From Nonomuraea antri (GTDB taxonomy: Bacteria > Actinomycetota > Actinomycetes > Streptosporangiales > Streptosporangiaceae): DNA of 64,000 nt. The stretch covers positions 1-64,000 of the forward strand of contig NZ_JABCPZ010000006.1 in assembly GCF_013283785.1 (NCBI RefSeq). The letters are read 5' to 3'. The first letter of the stretch is position 1; each line of letters opens with the position of its first letter. Under the pieces are notes generated by a model that was not told the origin of the DNA, did not search any database, and saw only the letters and a list, made by a program, of their open reading frames with translations. The position numbers were made by a program, and so were the translations under genes. Positions 23,017 through 30,087 of the stretch are shown one piece after another.

Positions 23017-23065
23017 TGTCGGTAATGACCATGGAATGCCGGTGCGCTTCGCTAAGCTCTCCAAC

Positions 23066-23142
23066 GGCAAGGCTGTAGCGCAGAGGTCGTCGCGCCTTAC
23101 AGCGGGTTGGAGGACGTCGGTTCGAATCCGACCAGCCTTGCC
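23066..23142 (+). ncRNA. tRNA-like RNA with aberrant anticodon region
   Basis: GGCAAGGCTG (23066-23075) pairs perfectly with CAGCCTTGCC (23133-23142), a 10-bp stem that contains a 7-bp acceptor stem. It is followed by T8 A9, a D-arm (GCGC, loop AGAGGTCGTC, GCGC; 23078-23095) and a perfect T-arm (GTCGG, loop TTCGAAT, CCGAC; 23116-23132). Between D- and T-stems there are only 20 bases (23096-23115), fewer than the minimum for position 26 plus anticodon arm plus variable loop, and no 5-bp anticodon stem forms. CCA is not encoded. A -10 candidate TAAGCT (23053-23058) ends seven bases before the first stem base. This is tRNA-like, not a translating tRNA, and sits 20 bp before the SDR-LRR-ankyrin-MoxR-VWA genes. 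Confidence 0.65.
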
Positions 23143-23161: not shown

Positions 23162-24628
23162 ATGCCGTTCGTCGAGCCCGGCCCGGCCGTGGCGCCGCCG
23201 GCCGGCTCGGGAGCCCGCCCCGACCTGGCCGAGATCGAGACGTGCCTGCGGGTGCTGGCCCAGGCCCGCGCGGCCGATCCGGCCGACGCCCGATGGGCCG
23301 ACGTGCACGAGGCGGCGGCGCAGCTGTACCGGGCGGGGAAGAAGACCAGGAAGGCGGCGCGGCACGCCGAGCGCAGGCGGCACGACCACGAGGCCACGGC
23401 GGCGTCGGCGCGTTACCGGGAGCAGGACCCGGCCCCCGTCCCGGAGGCGGCGTCCACGGACCGCCGGGATCCGGCGGGTGTCGCGGAGGCGGCATCGACG
23501 GGCCTGCTGATGGGCACGCGACGCTGTTACGTCTGCAAGTCCGCCTACCAGCGGGTCCATCCGGACTACCACCTGCTGTGCCCGGAGTGCGCCGAGGAGA
23601 ACCTGGCCCGCCGGCACGCCCGCTGCGATCTGCGCGGCCGCCGTGCGGTCGTGACCGGAGGGCGGGTGAAGATCGGCTTCCAGCTCGCGCTGAAGCTGCT
23701 GCGCGACGGTGCGGACGTCCTGGTCACCACCCGCTTCCCCCGGGATGCCGCCCGCCGGCTCGCGGCCGTGCCCGACGCCGGGGACTGGCTGGACCGGGTG
23801 CACGTCCACGGGGTCGACCTGCTCGACCTGGCGGCCGTCGCGGGGCTGCTGGAGTCCGTCCAGCGGCGGTTCGGCCATCTCGACATCCTGGTCAACAACG
23901 CGGCCCAGACGATCCGCAGGCCCGCCGCCTACCACCGGGAGGTACGCGCCGCCGAGCGCGTGCCGTTGAAAGGCCTGGCGACCCGGATCGACGTATCAGA
24001 CCTGACGGCCGTGCCCGCCGCCGGCGCGCGGCTGGAGCTCGCGCCCGCGGACGACACCCGCCGGGCCGTCCAGCGGCGGGACGCCGTGGAGGCGCTGTTC
24101 CCCGCAGGCCGGACCGACGAGACCGGCCAGCCGCTGGACCTGCGCGACCGCAACAGCTGGAGCCTACGGCTGCACGAGGTCGACCCGGCAGAATGGCTGG
24201 AGGTCCAGCTGGTGAACTCGTTCGCGCCGTTCCTGCTGACGTCCAGGCTGCGCGGTTCGCTGGAGGCCTCGCCGTGGCCGGACCGGTACGTCGTGCAGGT
24301 CTCGGCGATGGAAGGCAGCTTCTCCCGCGCGCAGAAGACCGTCCGCCACCCGCACACCAACATGGCCAAGGCCGCACTGAACATGCTGACCCGCACCGCC
24401 GCCGCCGACTACGCGGCCTCGGGCATCCACATGAACAGCGTCGACACCGGCTGGGTCACCGACGAACGCCCGCATCCCGACAAGAGCGCGCAACGCGAGG
24501 CGGGGTTCCGGCCGCCGCTGGACGTCATCGACGGCGCCGCCCGCGTCTACGACCCGATCGTGCGCGGCGTGGGCGGCGACCGGGTGTCCGGCCTGTTCTT
24601 GAAGGACTACCGACCGGTGGATTGGTGA
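23162..24628 (+). CDS. Zinc-ribbon SDR-like protein, first gene of the MoxR-VWA locus
   Basis: The 488-residue protein has about 110 charged N-terminal residues, a four-Cys zinc ribbon (CYVC at 122-125, CPEC at 140-143), then an SDR domain: AVVTGGRVKIG (about 162), NNAAQT (about 246), a Ser in VQVSAMEGS and MNSVDTGWVTDE. The catalytic Tyr position reads Thr (T-N-M-A-K), so normal SDR chemistry is doubtful. I chose the ATG at 23162 after GGGGG; a GTG at 23156 is possible. The frame open through the tRNA-like RNA upstream is not coding. The stop overlaps the LRR start as TGATG. Confidence 0.85.
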   Translation: MPFVEPGPAVAPPAGSGARPDLAEIETCLRVLAQARAADPADARWADVHEAAAQLYRAGKKTRKAARHAERRRHDHEATAASARYREQDPAPVPEAASTDRRDPAGVAEAASTGLLMGTRRCYVCKSAYQRVHPDYHLLCPECAEENLARRHARCDLRGRRAVVTGGRVKIGFQLALKLLRDGADVLVTTRFPRDAARRLAAVPDAGDWLDRVHVHGVDLLDLAAVAGLLESVQRRFGHLDILVNNAAQTIRRPAAYHREVRAAERVPLKGLATRIDVSDLTAVPAAGARLELAPADDTRRAVQRRDAVEALFPAGRTDETGQPLDLRDRNSWSLRLHEVDPAEWLEVQLVNSFAPFLLTSRLRGSLEASPWPDRYVVQVSAMEGSFSRAQKTVRHPHTNMAKAALNMLTRTAAADYAASGIHMNSVDTGWVTDERPHPDKSAQREAGFRPPLDVIDGAARVYDPIVRGVGGDRVSGLFLKDYRPVDW

Positions 24629-25761
24629 TGATGGAGCCGACGCCCGTACGCTGCCCCGCGATCGAGCACGCCGACGTGCCGCCGGCCGCTCTCGCGGACC
24701 TGGATCCGCTGGTCGCCCGGCTGGCCGCGGCGACCCCGGTGGCGGCCGACGAGACCTTCCCGCTGGGCACCCTGCGGCCGGACGGCCGGGTCGACCTGTG
24801 CAAGCAGGGCCTCGGACCGGCCGGCACGGCCCGGCTGCTCCCGGCCGCGGTGGCCTCGCCGCACGCCGTCCACCTGCTGCTGGGCACGAACGCCATCGGG
24901 AACGACGGCGCCAGGACCATCGCCGACGCGCTCGTTCCCGGCCACCGCGTGCGGACCCTCTACCTCGGCTGCAACCGCATCGCCGCGGCAGGCGCCGCGG
25001 CGCTCGCCGACCGGCTGGCCACGGACACCACCGTGCGCGCCGTGTGGCTCAAACGGAACCCGGTGGGCGACGACGGAGTTCGCGCACTCGCCGCGATGTT
25101 GCGCCGCAACACCACGATCCGCACGCTCGACCTGGTCAACACCGGGCTCACGCGGGAAGGGCTGCACGCGCTGCTGACGGTGCTCGCCGAGCGGCCGAAC
25201 CCGGTAGAACGGCTGTTCCTGGGCGGCAACGGGCTGGGCGCGGAGTCCGGCGACCTGCTGGCCGCGCTGATCAGCGACGCCGGGGTGCGCGAGCTCTACC
25301 TCCCGGCCAACCACCTCGGCGACGCCGGTGCGGCCAGGCTCGCGGCCGTGGCCGACCCGGCCCGGCCGGTGCGCCTGGGCCTCGGCGGCAACGGCATCGG
25401 ACCGGCGGGCGCCCGCGCGCTGGCCGGCGCGCTCGGCGGCATCGAGGCACTCGATCTCGGACGTCCGCCGTCGGAGCGCAGCCTCGGCGCGCCCGCCAAC
25501 GAAACCGGCGACACGGGCGCGGCCGCGCTGGCCGAGGCCCTGCCCGGCAGCCCGCTCCGACGGCTGGAACTGCGCAGGACCGGGATCACCGGCCGTGGCG
25601 CCAAGGCCCTGCTGGCCGCCATCCCCGACGACACCCGGCTGGAATACGTCGGGCTCGGCCCCGGCGTGCCCCGCCGGACGAAGCGGGCGCTGGCGCCGCG
25701 GCTCCGTCCCGCCGACCGGACACATCCGGACCTGCACGCGATCGGCAGCCTCTACCGATGA
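24628..25761 (+). CDS. Leucine-rich-repeat protein (ribonuclease-inhibitor type)
   Basis: The 377-residue protein has about eight or nine LRRs of 27-29 residues, with units such as VRTLYLGCNRIAAAGAAALA and VRELYLPANHLGDAGAARLA, the pattern of RI/NLR-type repeats. It has no signal peptide and no nuclease, protease or NTPase domain; it is likely a binding or sensing subunit acting in the cytoplasm. ATG at 24628 overlaps the SDR stop; GTG 24625 or ATG 24631 are alternatives. The stop overlaps the next start as ATGA. Confidence 0.88.
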   Translation: MMEPTPVRCPAIEHADVPPAALADLDPLVARLAAATPVAADETFPLGTLRPDGRVDLCKQGLGPAGTARLLPAAVASPHAVHLLLGTNAIGNDGARTIADALVPGHRVRTLYLGCNRIAAAGAAALADRLATDTTVRAVWLKRNPVGDDGVRALAAMLRRNTTIRTLDLVNTGLTREGLHALLTVLAERPNPVERLFLGGNGLGAESGDLLAALISDAGVRELYLPANHLGDAGAARLAAVADPARPVRLGLGGNGIGPAGARALAGALGGIEALDLGRPPSERSLGAPANETGDTGAAALAEALPGSPLRRLELRRTGITGRGAKALLAAIPDDTRLEYVGLGPGVPRRTKRALAPRLRPADRTHPDLHAIGSLYR

Positions 25762-27629
25762 GCGCGACGCCCCCACCGGCTCGACCGGCGTCCGATTCGT
25801 ACCCGCCGCACGAGGCGGCGCGGTTACGGCGGATCCGGCGGTACGCGGTGCCACCGTGGATGATCGACCGGGCGACCGAGCGACGGCTCGCCGGTGACTG
25901 GCGTGGCGCCTGCGCCGCCGCGAACGTCGACGTCACCTTCGACCTGGCCGACCTCGCGAACAGCCATGGCGACGCCGTCGCCGCGGCGATCGAGGACGAC
26001 CTGCGCCACTTCGCCCCGGACCTGCTGCGCTGGCACCTGCCCCGGCTGGACCGGGGACGCATCACGATCGTGCCCGACCAGGTGATTCTCCTGGGACGGC
26101 CGGGCGACGATCCGGACGCGCCCTGCCTGTACCTCCGGACGCCCCGCTGGATGGCCCACGGCCCGCAGCGGCTGCGGCTGCAGGTGGGAGAGGTCCATCG
26201 CCAGGAGATCTATCTGGAGACCGACTGGACCTACAGCGCGTTCTGGCGCAACGTCGTCCAGGACTGGAGTTCCTCGCGTCACCTGTGGGACGCGCGCCAT
26301 ACCGGTGAGCTGCGAGAACGCTGCGGCGGAGACAAGGCGCGGGCGCCGTTCCTGCACGGCGACGGCACCCCGCGCGGTGCGGGCGAGCTGCCCGCGGCCG
26401 ACCCGGGACACGGCGACCCGGCGGCGTTCGCCGAGTGGGTCACGCTGCTGCACGAACGCGGCGAGGTCGAAGCGGCGTTCGCGGCCGCCGGCATCGAGCT
26501 GGACACCGCGCTCGTCGCGGTCGAGCCCTACTACGAGCTGGAACCCCTCGATCCGCGCGACGTGCTCGCGCGGATGCCCATCGACGTGGCCCGGCTGGCG
26601 TCGGAGGTCCGCCGCCTCGCGGCCGCGACGGGAACCGGCCGTTTCTGGCTGCCCTACCGGCAGTACGCGGCGATCCTCTTCGAGACCGACGGCCCCGATT
26701 CCGAGACCGGCGGGCCCGGTTTCGAGCCCGGCGGCCCCGATGCGGGGTTGCGCGTGCGGTTCGTCGAGTTCGAGATGGGCACGGAGCCGGCGGACCTGGT
26801 GCTCCCCGAGGCGTGCTGGCGCCGCCTGCCCGACCTCGACCTGCTGCGCGACGGCCACCCGCCGGAGCGGCTGCATCCGCTCGTCCACGAGGCGCTGTTC
26901 CCGGACCGGGCCCTGGACGAGGCTCCCCCGGACGAACCGGAACCCCCGCGGCCGGTCCGGGTCCGCTGCCGCGGCGAGTGGCACGAGGTGTCCTTCCGCG
27001 ACGGCGTCCTGCACATTCCGCACAGCGAGCAGGAGCAGCAGCGGGAGAGCGCCATGCGGGTGTTCGGCGGCGCGATCGCCGGTTGCTTCGCCGCGCGGCA
27101 CGCCTGGACGTCAGGAACAGGACGGCTGCCCAAAGCCCTGCGCCAGCAGCGAAGCGAGCTGTTCACCCGGGCGCAGCACGGCGACCTGCCCGGAGTCCTG
27201 CGGCTGCTGGACGCCGGCCTGGACCCGCGCGTCCGTGACGACCGGCAGCGCACCCTGCTCCACCTGCTGCACCTGCTCGACCCCGGCGTCGACCCGAGCG
27301 TGCGCGGCACTCTGCGGCAGGAGGCGGCGCACCGGCTGCGCCACCTCGGCCACGACGGCCTGCTCGGCCGGCTGCTGGCGGCGGGCCTGGACATCGACGC
27401 CACGGACGAGAGCCGGCGCACGCCGCTGTTCGCCGCGATCTGCGGAGACGGCTCGGTGGCGCTCATCGAGGCGCTGCTCACCGCGGGGGCCAGGATCGAC
27501 CTCTGCGGTGAGATCCACGACGAGCCCGTCTCGCTGCACCGCCTGATCAGCTGGCTCGAACGCGACGACCTGCACTTCATCGTCGACCGGATCGAACGCG
27601 AGCATCCGGAGCTCGCCGAGGAAGAGTGA
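25758..27629 (+). CDS. Large protein with C-terminal ankyrin repeats
   Basis: The 623-residue protein starts as ATGA inside the LRR stop. The first 450 residues form no domain I can name; they are acidic with several Trp-rich stretches (WTYSAFWRNVVQDWSSSRHLW near 160). From about 470 there are ankyrin-like repeats (ELFTRAQHGDLPGVLRLLDAGLD; LLGRLLAAGLDIDATDESRRTPLFAA; ALIEALLTAGARIDL). It may be a scaffold joining target and AAA+ machine. A 73-bp gap separates it from the MoxR gene. Confidence 0.8.
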   Translation: MSATPPPARPASDSYPPHEAARLRRIRRYAVPPWMIDRATERRLAGDWRGACAAANVDVTFDLADLANSHGDAVAAAIEDDLRHFAPDLLRWHLPRLDRGRITIVPDQVILLGRPGDDPDAPCLYLRTPRWMAHGPQRLRLQVGEVHRQEIYLETDWTYSAFWRNVVQDWSSSRHLWDARHTGELRERCGGDKARAPFLHGDGTPRGAGELPAADPGHGDPAAFAEWVTLLHERGEVEAAFAAAGIELDTALVAVEPYYELEPLDPRDVLARMPIDVARLASEVRRLAAATGTGRFWLPYRQYAAILFETDGPDSETGGPGFEPGGPDAGLRVRFVEFEMGTEPADLVLPEACWRRLPDLDLLRDGHPPERLHPLVHEALFPDRALDEAPPDEPEPPRPVRVRCRGEWHEVSFRDGVLHIPHSEQEQQRESAMRVFGGAIAGCFAARHAWTSGTGRLPKALRQQRSELFTRAQHGDLPGVLRLLDAGLDPRVRDDRQRTLLHLLHLLDPGVDPSVRGTLRQEAAHRLRHLGHDGLLGRLLAAGLDIDATDESRRTPLFAAICGDGSVALIEALLTAGARIDLCGEIHDEPVSLHRLISWLERDDLHFIVDRIEREHPELAEEE

Positions 27630-27702: not shown

Positions 27703-28905
27703 GTGAACATCACCGACGAGGACTCCGCGCCGGATCCGCTGGCGACGGCCGACGAGCTGGTGCGGCGGCTCGCCGCCCAGCGAGCCGAGCCGGCCGCGAA
27801 CCCGCAGCTGGAGGCGCTGTCGCTCGCGGTGTCCGCGAACCTGCCCGTGTTGTTGTGGGGCGAGCCGGGCATCGGCAAGTCCGCCGCGCTCCAGCAACTG
27901 GCCGCCGGGCTCCGCGTCCCGCTGGAGACGGTGATCGCGAGCGTGCACGAGCCGTCCGACTTCGCCGGCCTGCCGATCATCGGCGACGACCCGGCCACCA
28001 CCGGGGTGCCGATGGCCCCGCCGGACTGGGCGGTGCGGCTGACCTCGGCCGGGCGCGGCGTGGTGTTCTTCGACGAGCTGTCCTCCGCTCCGCCCGCCGT
28101 CCAGGCGGCGCTGCTGCGGGTCGTGCTCGAACGCCGGGTCGGCAGCCTGCCGCTCCCCGAGCAGGTGCGGGTGGTCGCCGCCGCCAACCCGCCGTCCAGC
28201 GCCGCCGACGGCTGGCACCTCAGCCCGCCGCTCGCGAACCGGTTCGTCCACCTGCAGTGGACGCACGACCCGCGGACGGTCGCCCGCGGCATGGCGGGAA
28301 CCTGGCCGGCCGTGCGGTTGCCGCTGATCGACCCGGCCCGGATGTCCAGCGCGGTCGCCCGGGCCCGCGGGGTGGTCTCCGGGTTCCTCACCGCCCGGCC
28401 CGGCCTGGCCCACCACCTGCCCGGCGACGCGGAGGGCCGGGGTCGCGCCTGGCCGTCGCCGCGTACCTGGGAGATGGCGCTGCGCCTGCTGGCGGTCGGG
28501 TACGCCGCCGACGCCGACCAGAAGGCGGTCGCCGCGGCGGTGATCGGCGCGGTGGGCGACGGCGCGGGGCTCGAACTGCTGAACTACCTCGAACAGCTCG
28601 ACCTGCCCGACCCGGACCGGGTGCTGGCCAACCCGGACGCCTTCGCCCTGCCGAAGCGCGGCGACCGGCAGCTCGCCTTCCTGACGGCCGTCGTCTCGGC
28701 GGTGCAGAGCGACCCCACCAGGCGGCGCTGGGAGGCCGGCTGGACGGTGCTGGCCAAGGCGGTCGACGCGGGCGTACCCGACGTCGCGGCCCGGGCCGCC
28801 GCGGATCTCGCGGCGCTGCGCGACACCGACTGGCCGGTGCCGAGCGGCATCGACGCGTTCCTCGACCTGCTCCAGCTCTCCGGCGCGCTGCCCGGCGCCC
28901 ACTGA
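27703..28905 (+). CDS. MoxR-like AAA+ ATPase
   Basis: The 400-residue protein has Walker A GEPGIGKSA (about 54), Walker B VVFFDELSSAPP (about 122), sensor 1 VVAAANPP (about 160) and the arginine region of the MoxR branch. MoxR ATPases work with VWA-domain partners to remodel or activate proteins by ATP hydrolysis. The start is GTG at 27703 with GGAAGGA about 9 bases upstream. Its partner gene follows after 6 bp. Confidence 0.92.
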   Translation: MNITDEDSAPDPLATADELVRRLAAQRAEPAANPQLEALSLAVSANLPVLLWGEPGIGKSAALQQLAAGLRVPLETVIASVHEPSDFAGLPIIGDDPATTGVPMAPPDWAVRLTSAGRGVVFFDELSSAPPAVQAALLRVVLERRVGSLPLPEQVRVVAAANPPSSAADGWHLSPPLANRFVHLQWTHDPRTVARGMAGTWPAVRLPLIDPARMSSAVARARGVVSGFLTARPGLAHHLPGDAEGRGRAWPSPRTWEMALRLLAVGYAADADQKAVAAAVIGAVGDGAGLELLNYLEQLDLPDPDRVLANPDAFALPKRGDRQLAFLTAVVSAVQSDPTRRRWEAGWTVLAKAVDAGVPDVAARAAADLAALRDTDWPVPSGIDAFLDLLQLSGALPGAH

Positions 28906-28911
28906 TCGCTC

Positions 28912-30087
28912 ATGGCCGAATTCGACCAGGTCAAGCTGCTCGCTGCGCGGTACCGGGCGGCGAGCGACCGGCCGTACCTGGCCGCGGCGCTCTACTCCCT
29001 GACGGTCGTGCCGACCGGCGCCGTGTCGACGATGGCGGTCGACCGGCACTGGCGGTGCTACGTGTCACCGGAGTTCGTCGCCGCGACGTCCGTGCCGGAG
29101 CTCGCGGGCGTGTGGATCCACGAGCTGGCTCACGTGCTGCGCGACCACCACGGACGCGCCGACCGGCTCACGGCCGCCGACCAGCGCGACCGGTTGCGCG
29201 TGAACGTCGCCCAGGACTGCGAGATCAACGACGACCTGCTCGCCGACGGGCTGACCCTGCCGGAAGGCCGGGTGGAGCCGGCTGCCTTCGGGCTGGCGAC
29301 CGGACGGCTGTTCGAGGAGTATCTCCTGGGACTGCCGCCGTTCACCCGCGGCTCCGACTGCGGCTCTGGCGCGCACGGCGTACCTGGCGATTGGGAGATC
29401 GCCGGAGAGCGCGGGCCGGGCGGCGTCAGCACGGTCGAGGCCGAGGCGCTGCGCCGGCACACCGCCGAGGCGATGCGCGCGCACCGGCGCAACCGCGGCA
29501 GCCTCCCGGCCGGCTGGCAACGCTGGGCGGAGCAGATCCTGGAGCCCACGGTCGACTGGCGTCGCGTGCTCGCCGGCGCCGTGCGTGAGGCGGTCGCCTG
29601 GGCCGCAGGGGCGGTCGACTACACCTACCACCGCCCGTCGCGCCGCACCGGCGCGCTGCGCGGCGTCGTGCTGCCCAGCCTGCGCCGTCCGGTGCCGGCC
29701 GTCGCGATCGTCGTCGACACCTCGGGCTCCATGGGCGAGGACGACCTCGCCGAGGCGCTCGCCGAGGTCACCGGGGTGCTGCGGGCCGTGGGCGTCGGCG
29801 GCAACCGGGTCAGCGTGCTGGCCTGCGACGCGGACGTGCACACCGCCGCCCGGGTGACGTCCGCGCAGCAGGTGAACCTGGCCGGCGGGGGCGGCACCGA
29901 CATGCGGGTCGGCATCAGGGCCGCACTCGCCCTGCCGGAACGGCCCGGCGTGGTGATCGTGCTGACCGACGGCCACACGCCGTGGCCGGAGGCGCCGTCG
30001 TCGGCCCGCGTCATCGCCGCGCTCATCGGCACCGCCCCGCCGGCCCCGCCCGCCTGGGTCGAGGCCGTCAGGGTGGGCGCCGGGTGA
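28912..30087 (+). CDS. Metallopeptidase-like and VWA-domain protein (DUF2201 type)
   Basis: The 391-residue protein has a zincin motif HELAHVLRDHH (about 68-78) in its N-terminal half and a VWA domain in the C-terminal half with an intact MIDAS (DTSGSM about 268, GGTDM about 330, LTDGH about 350). This is the DUF2201 layout, which is commonly paired with MoxR ATPases. It would be the effector or adaptor moved by the AAA+ ring. It is the last gene of the run; an opposite-strand gene follows after 10 bp. Confidence 0.9.
   Translation: MAEFDQVKLLAARYRAASDRPYLAAALYSLTVVPTGAVSTMAVDRHWRCYVSPEFVAATSVPELAGVWIHELAHVLRDHHGRADRLTAADQRDRLRVNVAQDCEINDDLLADGLTLPEGRVEPAAFGLATGRLFEEYLLGLPPFTRGSDCGSGAHGVPGDWEIAGERGPGGVSTVEAEALRRHTAEAMRAHRRNRGSLPAGWQRWAEQILEPTVDWRRVLAGAVREAVAWAAGAVDYTYHRPSRRTGALRGVVLPSLRRPVPAVAIVVDTSGSMGEDDLAEALAEVTGVLRAVGVGGNRVSVLACDADVHTAARVTSAQQVNLAGGGGTDMRVGIRAALALPERPGVVIVLTDGHTPWPEAPSSARVIAALIGTAPPAPPAWVEAVRVGAG

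Follow-up and report, generated by a model that had tools for sequence, protein, structure and literature searches.

A tRNA-shaped RNA family with a variable anticodon arm, usually encoded just ahead of an uncharacterised operon in actinomycetes

Many soil actinomycetes carry a tRNA-shaped RNA that is usually encoded just before the same uncharacterised protein genes. The copy described here lies in the window, by which we mean the whole stretch of DNA that was analysed (64,000 nucleotides of Nonomuraea antri, positions 1 to 64,000 of contig NZ_JABCPZ010000006.1); it is a member of a conserved family and not a decayed tRNA. Variation in these RNAs is concentrated in the anticodon arm, which is relaxed rather than absent. 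Because the anticodon end varies, the rest is kept and the same genes follow, the RNA is probably the partner of a protein and not an ordinary tRNA. The reading that we prefer, and consider probable, is that it is a dedicated tRNA mimic serving an SDR-LRR-ANK-MoxR-VWA system. The parts of the RNA and the genes of the operon are collected in Table 1.

Table 1. Features of the RNA and of the operon that follows it (window positions)
Feature	Position	Strand	Evidence
-10 box TAAGCT, 7 nt ahead of first stem base	23053..23058	+	conserved TANNNT spacing
tRNA-like RNA, 77 nt	23066..23142	+	sequence reading, ARAGORN, Rfam, RNAfold, family model R1
Closing stem, 5' strand, 10 bp (7-bp acceptor and three outer pairs)	23066..23075	+	double-sided changes at 10/10 pairs
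D-arm with G18G19, near-invariant	23078..23093	+	family alignment
Anticodon-arm remnant, 16 nt, no canonical stem	23095..23110	+	parsed copies, folding
Variable loop AGGAC	23111..23115	+	192/193 parsed copies (parser permitted few alternatives)
T-arm, loop TTCGAAT	23116..23132	+	99.6% of cells paired in alignment
Closing stem, 3' strand, sealing positions 73-75	23133..23142	+	covariation
SDR-family protein, N-terminal Cys-rich (CxxC...CxxC) segment	23162..24628	+	PF00106; synteny
Leucine-rich-repeat (LRR) protein	24628..25761	+	PF13516, detected in longer enclosing frame
ANK protein, conserved N-terminal domain of ~450 aa and ankyrin repeats	25758..27629	+	domain matches, alignment, model
MoxR-type AAA ATPase	27703..28905	+	PF07728
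VWA protein with DUF2201 metallopeptidase-like domain	28912..30087	+	PF13203, PF09967

The tRNA-like RNA in the window

The first-pass annotation, made by reading the letters, had described a 10-bp closing stem, a D-arm and a T-arm with the loop TTCGAAT, and had counted 20 bases from D-stem to T-stem. All of these can be found in the sequence as described, the D-arm in the form GCGC...GCGC with a stem of 4 bp, with one refinement: in tRNA numbering, the D-stem consists of 3 bp and a C13.U22 mismatch. Bases T8 and A9 are present, and so are the tRNA elbow bases G18 and G19 and a T-loop that fits TTCGANT, so that the D- and T-arms are those expected of a tRNA. A canonical anticodon stem of 5 bp, with a 7-nt loop and U33, cannot be drawn for the 16-nt arm of this copy. 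The remnant scarcely folds here (-0.7 kcal/mol), and hairpins are seen at this place in many relatives.

The RNAfold energy of the complete RNA is better than that of shuffled sequences (z -3.1, with 2/200 shuffles equally low). The unconstrained minimum-energy fold, at -36.2 kcal/mol, retains the closing stem and the T-arm and loses the D-arm, and the fold with the closing stem, 4-bp D-arm and T-arm has an energy of -29.3 kcal/mol, in which tertiary contacts are not counted.

ARAGORN labels the window RNA tRNA-Cys(aca), and the Rfam tRNA model matches it with 41.4 bits, skipping the anticodon arm as a local gap. The Nonomuraea antri genome has 67 matches to the tRNA model, 65 of them over the cut-off, and the window RNA is the second weakest. 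With a covariance model of the family itself (R1), it scores 90.3 bits, and the next score among the matches listed genome-wide is 66.0; the RNA is single-copy within its own genome.

Another RNA in this genome, at L234:500-578(-) (C134:14699-14777), is called as 'tRNA-Ala(agc)' and scores 66 bits with R1; it combines an ordinary D-arm with a 10-bp closing stem, GGCTTCGCCG/CGGCGAAGCC. Its 17.9-kb contig contains weak TetR- and VWA-domain matches only, together with three weak phage matches, and the operon is absent from it.

Family definition and distribution

An 87-base query covering the RNA matches 67/298 genomes of the same taxonomic family. Ten of the 67 were dropped before counting, their matches being merely 22-43-nt pieces, which leaves 57 genomes with more than a short piece. 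An exact pattern search of genome_contigs finds the RNA in at least 118 stretches, and 22 actinomycete genus names occur among the matches listed, including Streptomyces, Kitasatospora, Actinomadura, Nonomuraea, Nocardiopsis, Actinoplanes, Catellatospora and Dactylosporangium. Among named loci, one from Nonomuraea (L163) is closely related to the window locus; the RNA is present there, and the SDR and LRR proteins are 82% and 89% identical, respectively.

Copies were parsed with a regular expression, and those that do not fit it are omitted; the resulting set holds 193 copies (144 distinct sequences), with some contigs represented twice. The D-arm is largely fixed by the search pattern and the parser, as are the variable loop and a portion of the T-arm, and the constancy of these three parts is therefore partly by construction. 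The closing stem, for which the parser requires at least 6/10 pairs, and the anticodon arm are left far freer. Model R1 also detects ordinary tRNAs (up to 54.9 bits for those of its own genome). For this reason the R1 survey, which includes matches at 60-72 bits and returns matches in 394/394 genomes, is no measure of distribution.

A phage origin finds no match, either in viral_contigs with the exact pattern or in phages. Five Streptomyces plasmids match the RNA query, one of them across 80% of its length; for three of the matching plasmids, an incomplete gene table lists no annotated MoxR or VWA product at a distance of up to 9 kb.

Selection on the closing stem and on the promoter position

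An alignment of 54 copies (53 distinct) was used to look for the compensating changes that the first-pass annotation had proposed as a check. They are found throughout the closing stem: each of the ten pairs has changed on both sides, and across the 53 distinct sequences the share of paired cells is 96.8%. For the T-stem this share is 99.6%. The D-stem is almost invariant and therefore carries little information on selection, and the inner three pairs of a canonical anticodon stem fail in 25-26/53 sequences. The three outer pairs that extend the acceptor stem are complete in 86 of the 105 distinct gene-proximal copies, as compared with 0/42 ordinary tRNAs of the same genome (30 of its 67 tRNA-model loci, giving 42 distinct genes). 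CCA is encoded in 29/193 copies, and the pairs at positions 73-75 covary.

All 77 bases of the RNA are identical in two genomes from other genera. In the same comparison, LRR, MoxR and VWA have 71-80% identity at third codon positions, and the flanks of the RNA agree at 20-34 of 60 nt (ungapped). The copy at L035, 95% identical to the window query, was excluded from this comparison of RNA with codon positions.

The position of the promoter-like box is conserved as well. The motif TANNNT lies 5-9 nt upstream of the first stem base in 127/143 distinct copies, compared with 0-2/143 in ten control windows; one of the 144 distinct copies, with <80 nt of upstream sequence, is omitted from the count. 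By class, the box precedes 100/104 gene-proximal, 17/20 array and 8/16 solitary copies, the remainder being at contig edges. Since TANNNT precedes 17/20 array copies, most of these have a -10 box of their own. The proposal that TAAGCT sets the start at the first stem base thus gains support from a placement that is conserved family-wide, and transcription would begin at that base.

One feature of the window copy, the missing canonical anticodon arm, would suit a decayed tRNA kept by chance. We give this explanation almost no credence: it is excluded by the covariation, the 77/77 identity across genera, the conservation of the promoter and the operon linkage described below. The earlier claim that the RNA is kept by selection in a tRNA shape, and is not decaying, is borne out by the cross-genus identity, the covariation and the conserved promoter placement.

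Linkage to the downstream operon

In 144/193 parsed copies, the RNA lies at most 600 nt upstream, on the same strand, of an SDR (66), LRR (49), ANK (28) or MoxR (1) gene. Of the others, 27 have a further copy behind them, 17 are solitary and 5 are at contig edges. The parsed copies come from the genome_contigs stretches and from forty regions of 12.5-19.5 kb that were selected by their RNA matches; in 37 of these regions the RNA adjoins one or more of the SDR, LRR, ANK, MoxR and VWA genes on the same strand, and in the other three (L068, L070 and L071) none of the five is beside it. The arrangement is not fixed. The RNA can be found with the ANK gene alone (L036, L039, L043 and L065), as three successive RNA-ANK units (L038) and in the order RNA-SDR-LRR-RNA-RNA-ANK-RNA-MoxR-VWA (L040). 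The same linkage is common among the named genome_contigs stretches (at least 118), where several copies are without such a gene.

Co-occurrence was counted across genomes, and shared ancestry is ignored in both p-values given here. In the 298 genomes of the family, 57 have the RNA, 44 have a strong ANK match and 42 have both (p=6.5e-36); from an initial 68 ANK genomes, the 24 whose E exceeds 1e-80 were dropped beforehand. In 150 genomes of a Streptomyces-like genus, 20 have the RNA, 16 have ANK and 16 have both (p=3.5e-18), and a reversed-pattern control in these genomes gives 0. Within loci, RNA and ANK copy numbers are weakly correlated (Spearman 0.40, p=0.012, 40 loci). This weak correlation speaks against the partner reading, as do the 17/193 solitary copies, the 15/57 RNA genomes without a strong ANK match and the preference of the energy model for a fold that loses the D-arm.

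The N-terminal Cys-rich segment of the SDR protein, CYVC...CPEC, resembles a zinc ribbon. In L085, L105, L115, L152, L180 and other Streptomyces loci, a spacer of ~108 nt between the RNA and the LRR start looks alike when compared by eye and contains apparent hairpins, possibly a second regulatory element.

An RNA placed in this way could instead be a cis-acting 5' leader on the operon mRNA, controlling its processing, stability or translation, for example by titrating a tRNA-binding factor. The 144/193 copies directly 5' of a same-strand gene, with a -10 box set for the first stem base, would suit such a leader, as would the ~108 nt that many Streptomyces loci have alike between the RNA and the LRR start. 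We nevertheless judge it distinctly unlikely, since tandem copies mostly have their own -10 box (17/20 in arrays), solitary copies exist and, according to the available part of PMC9262613, the RNA alone has effects in S. coelicolor, which points to an RNA acting in trans.

A PADLOC search of the five operon proteins gives no confident known defence family: SDR, LRR and VWA are unmatched, MoxR matches the RtcR and IetA models weakly and the ankyrin part of ANK also matches weakly. The ANK protein was modelled from an alignment of 32 sequences (pLDDT 88.6, pTM 0.89). Its ankyrin part is plain, and the structure matches listed for the whole model are ankyrins only. Predicted alone, residues 1-450 give a pLDDT of 88.3 and a pTM of 0.84. 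Searches of the PDB with this predicted domain find no match, the best values being an E of 1.6 in Foldseek and a Z of 2.9 across 73 residues in VIA; they are no proof of a new fold.

In 24 genomes there are weaker and shorter relatives of the ANK N-terminal domain, and 22 of these genomes lack the RNA. In G016, G100, G212 and G247, frames of 428-471 aa match the domain weakly, with E of ~1.3e-46 to 1.9e-48.

The smallest unit seen, an RNA followed by an ANK gene and sometimes repeated (L038), brings to mind an RNA antitoxin, in which RNA repeats would neutralise the ANK protein in the fashion of a type III toxin-antitoxin system. RNA arrays do precede the protein gene, and ANK is sporadic (44/298 and 16/150 genomes). 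This explanation seems very improbable to us, given the large size and the repeats of the ANK protein, its usual company of partner genes and the 22/24 genomes with the weaker N-terminal relatives that have no RNA.

The variable anticodon arm

There are 110 distinct anticodon arms across the 143 distinct copies. For stem and U33 counts we used the 17-nt arms, leaving out other arm lengths. Among LRR-proximal copies (mostly Streptomyces), a 5/5 canonical stem occurs in 0/32 and U33 in 1/32, and the triplet at 34-36 is ATC in 20, TGC in 4, AGC in 3 and TTC, GGC, GTC, ACC or AAC once each. SDR-proximal copies have the 5/5 stem in 14/31 and U33 in 8/31, tandem (array) copies in 8/15 and 6/15, and solitary copies in 5/10 and 4/10. 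Full 5/7 anticodon arms that also have U33 occur in some relatives, several arms fold instead into short hairpins with 5-nt loops, and tandem copies display differing arms on one shared body. The same body carries anticodon loops of Trp(CCA) or Cys(GCA) type in solitary copies away from the operon (L109, L113, L148, L088 and L138).

The claim of a missing anticodon arm therefore holds for the window copy and fails for the family, in which the arm is relaxed and some relatives have it in full. Relatives with a real arm, which the first-pass annotation had named as grounds for refuting its reading, were found in part, among SDR-proximal and array copies with 17-nt arms, some of them with U33.

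One member of the family has been published. The available text of PMC9262613 describes it, from Streptomyces sp. SPC6, as a decoding tRNA, tRNA-Asp-AUC, with C33 and an imperfect anticodon stem. There it is reported to be constitutively expressed, with an abundance equivalent to that of tRNA-Asp-GUC, to be present in small-RNA sequencing (in SPC6, 48,557 reads at position 34), to rescue the expression of a 6xGAT reporter, which was read as GAU decoding, and to have effects when inserted alone, with its native promoter, in S. coelicolor. The same text gives its occurrence as 32/4649 streptomycete genomes, states that other organisms lack homologues, and places a cluster of leucine-rich, large, MoxR and unknown proteins 3' of it. 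This was the sole paper describing a member that our literature search found; tRNA-Asp-AUC is also mentioned in the parts of PMC11721673 and PMC11747395 that were available. The published forward qPCR primer matches the window exactly, and among the loci compared both primers match L171, L118, L150 and L092, the last of which has AGC and not AUC as its triplet.

The report of no homologues elsewhere, as it stands in the available part of PMC9262613, is contradicted by our survey, and the triplet drifts. The 6xGAT result stands as evidence for decoding by the SPC6 copy. Together with the tRNA-Asp-GUC-like abundance (PMC9262613, as available), it speaks for the view that these are genuine, if odd, tRNAs that decode codons, with an operon link that reflects hitch-hiking, for example from an old integration site. 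ARAGORN and Rfam both call a tRNA, and some copies, solitary or in arrays, have a canonical arm, U33 and a triplet of Trp, Cys, Asp or Ser type. We think this view unlikely: it has to accommodate LRR-proximal copies with eight triplets, U33 in 1/32 and no 5/5 stem in any of 32, as well as a 3' end paired by covarying bases, and a single integration hardly explains linkage across different gene orders, RNA-ANK units and arrays. The RNA may be non-translating, as the first-pass annotation supposed; against a role in translation speak the covarying bases that seal its 3' end, the C at position 33 and the shifts of the triplet. Our survey thus broadens, and partly disputes, the account of tRNA-Asp-AUC as a decoding tRNA in the available part of PMC9262613.

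Proposed role and significance

If the RNA is a dedicated mimic with a protein partner, its parts can be assigned as follows. Contacts between the D- and T-loops would fold it into an L, and the paired 3' end (positions 73-75) would prevent an ordinary role as aminoacyl acceptor. The constant body may be bound by a protein of the operon, for which the linkage makes the ANK N-terminal domain the likeliest candidate, and MoxR and VWA would form an ATP-driven remodelling pair that acts on the complex. Freed from decoding, the anticodon arm could be presented to a lineage-specific partner. At a guess, the RNA would most likely stand in for tRNA and so bait or sense agents that handle tRNAs or attack them.

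The function of the system is thus something we infer, and its bait or sensor step is a guess. A more explicit version, tentative and in our opinion rather unlikely, is a sensing system with tRNA decoys: one to six copies of a constant body with differing anticodon arms, held by ANK and served by a MoxR-VWA motor, so that enzymes that attack or hijack tRNAs would strike a decoy first and set off a response.

The analysis defines a tRNA-shaped RNA family that is widespread in actinomycetes, Streptomyces among them, and the uncharacterised operon of several proteins that is its probable partner. It also recasts a published 'new tRNA' with which antibiotic yields have been raised; should the RNA serve a protein and not decode, another cause would be needed for those effects. 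Finally, it offers a compact test case in which a tRNA body would be retained for a non-translational use and the anticodon arm set free.

Comparison with known systems

The first-pass annotation had likened the RNA to Y RNAs, a kinship that did not hold up. No YrlA covariance-model match to the window RNA is listed at E up to 10, and none of nine proteins scanned around it matches TROVE. The one TROVE match of the genome is on another contig (C444; the window is on C547), and family model R1 gives the genome's own YrlA-like RNA 25.5 bits, compared with 90.3 for the window RNA. Y RNA membership was rejected on these grounds. Ro60 itself has a VWA domain. YrlA with Rsr/Ro60 (PMC8394870, available part) is like the window RNA in that its two ends pair in a stem and that it has D-, T- and acceptor arms. 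The YrlA-like RNA of this genome also resembles it in position, directly 5' of a partner gene. The two RNAs thus have a common plan; membership is not supported.

The YrlA-like RNA on C444 (L233:3734-3837) scores 42.6 bits with Rfam, where the gathering score is 69, and a TROVE/Ro60 open frame starts at about 3899, directly after it. ARAGORN calls a tRNA-Ile on a stretch that overlaps this RNA.

In type III toxin-antitoxin systems, tandem RNA repeats precede a protein gene; the present family differs in that its units are tRNA-shaped and its operon encodes several proteins. Another tRNA-like gene outside translation is tRNA-Other of Bacillus cereus (PMC3399842, available part), which differs in that it is a pseudo-tRNA, has a Trp anticodon and probably belongs to a larger regulatory RNA, and for which that part describes no operon-linked family.

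A MoxR ATPase adjoining a VWA protein is also found in MoxR-VWA ternary conflict systems and in NorQ/NorD-type chaperone pairs, as described in the available parts of PMC7159879 and PMC9976466, respectively. The bpMoxR match in our operon is weak, at 18.7 bits, and lies below the curated cut-off of 27. In the available part of PMC7159879, the terms small RNA, tRNA, ncRNA and non-coding appear in entries of the reference list only.

The closest known counterpart is tRNA-Asp-AUC (PMC9262613, as available), which belongs to the same family as the window RNA by sequence and by the gene cluster 3' of it. To that description the present survey adds 22 genus names, changing triplets, a sealed 3' end and arrays, and the operon, there a neighbouring cluster, is read here as the functional partner of the RNA.
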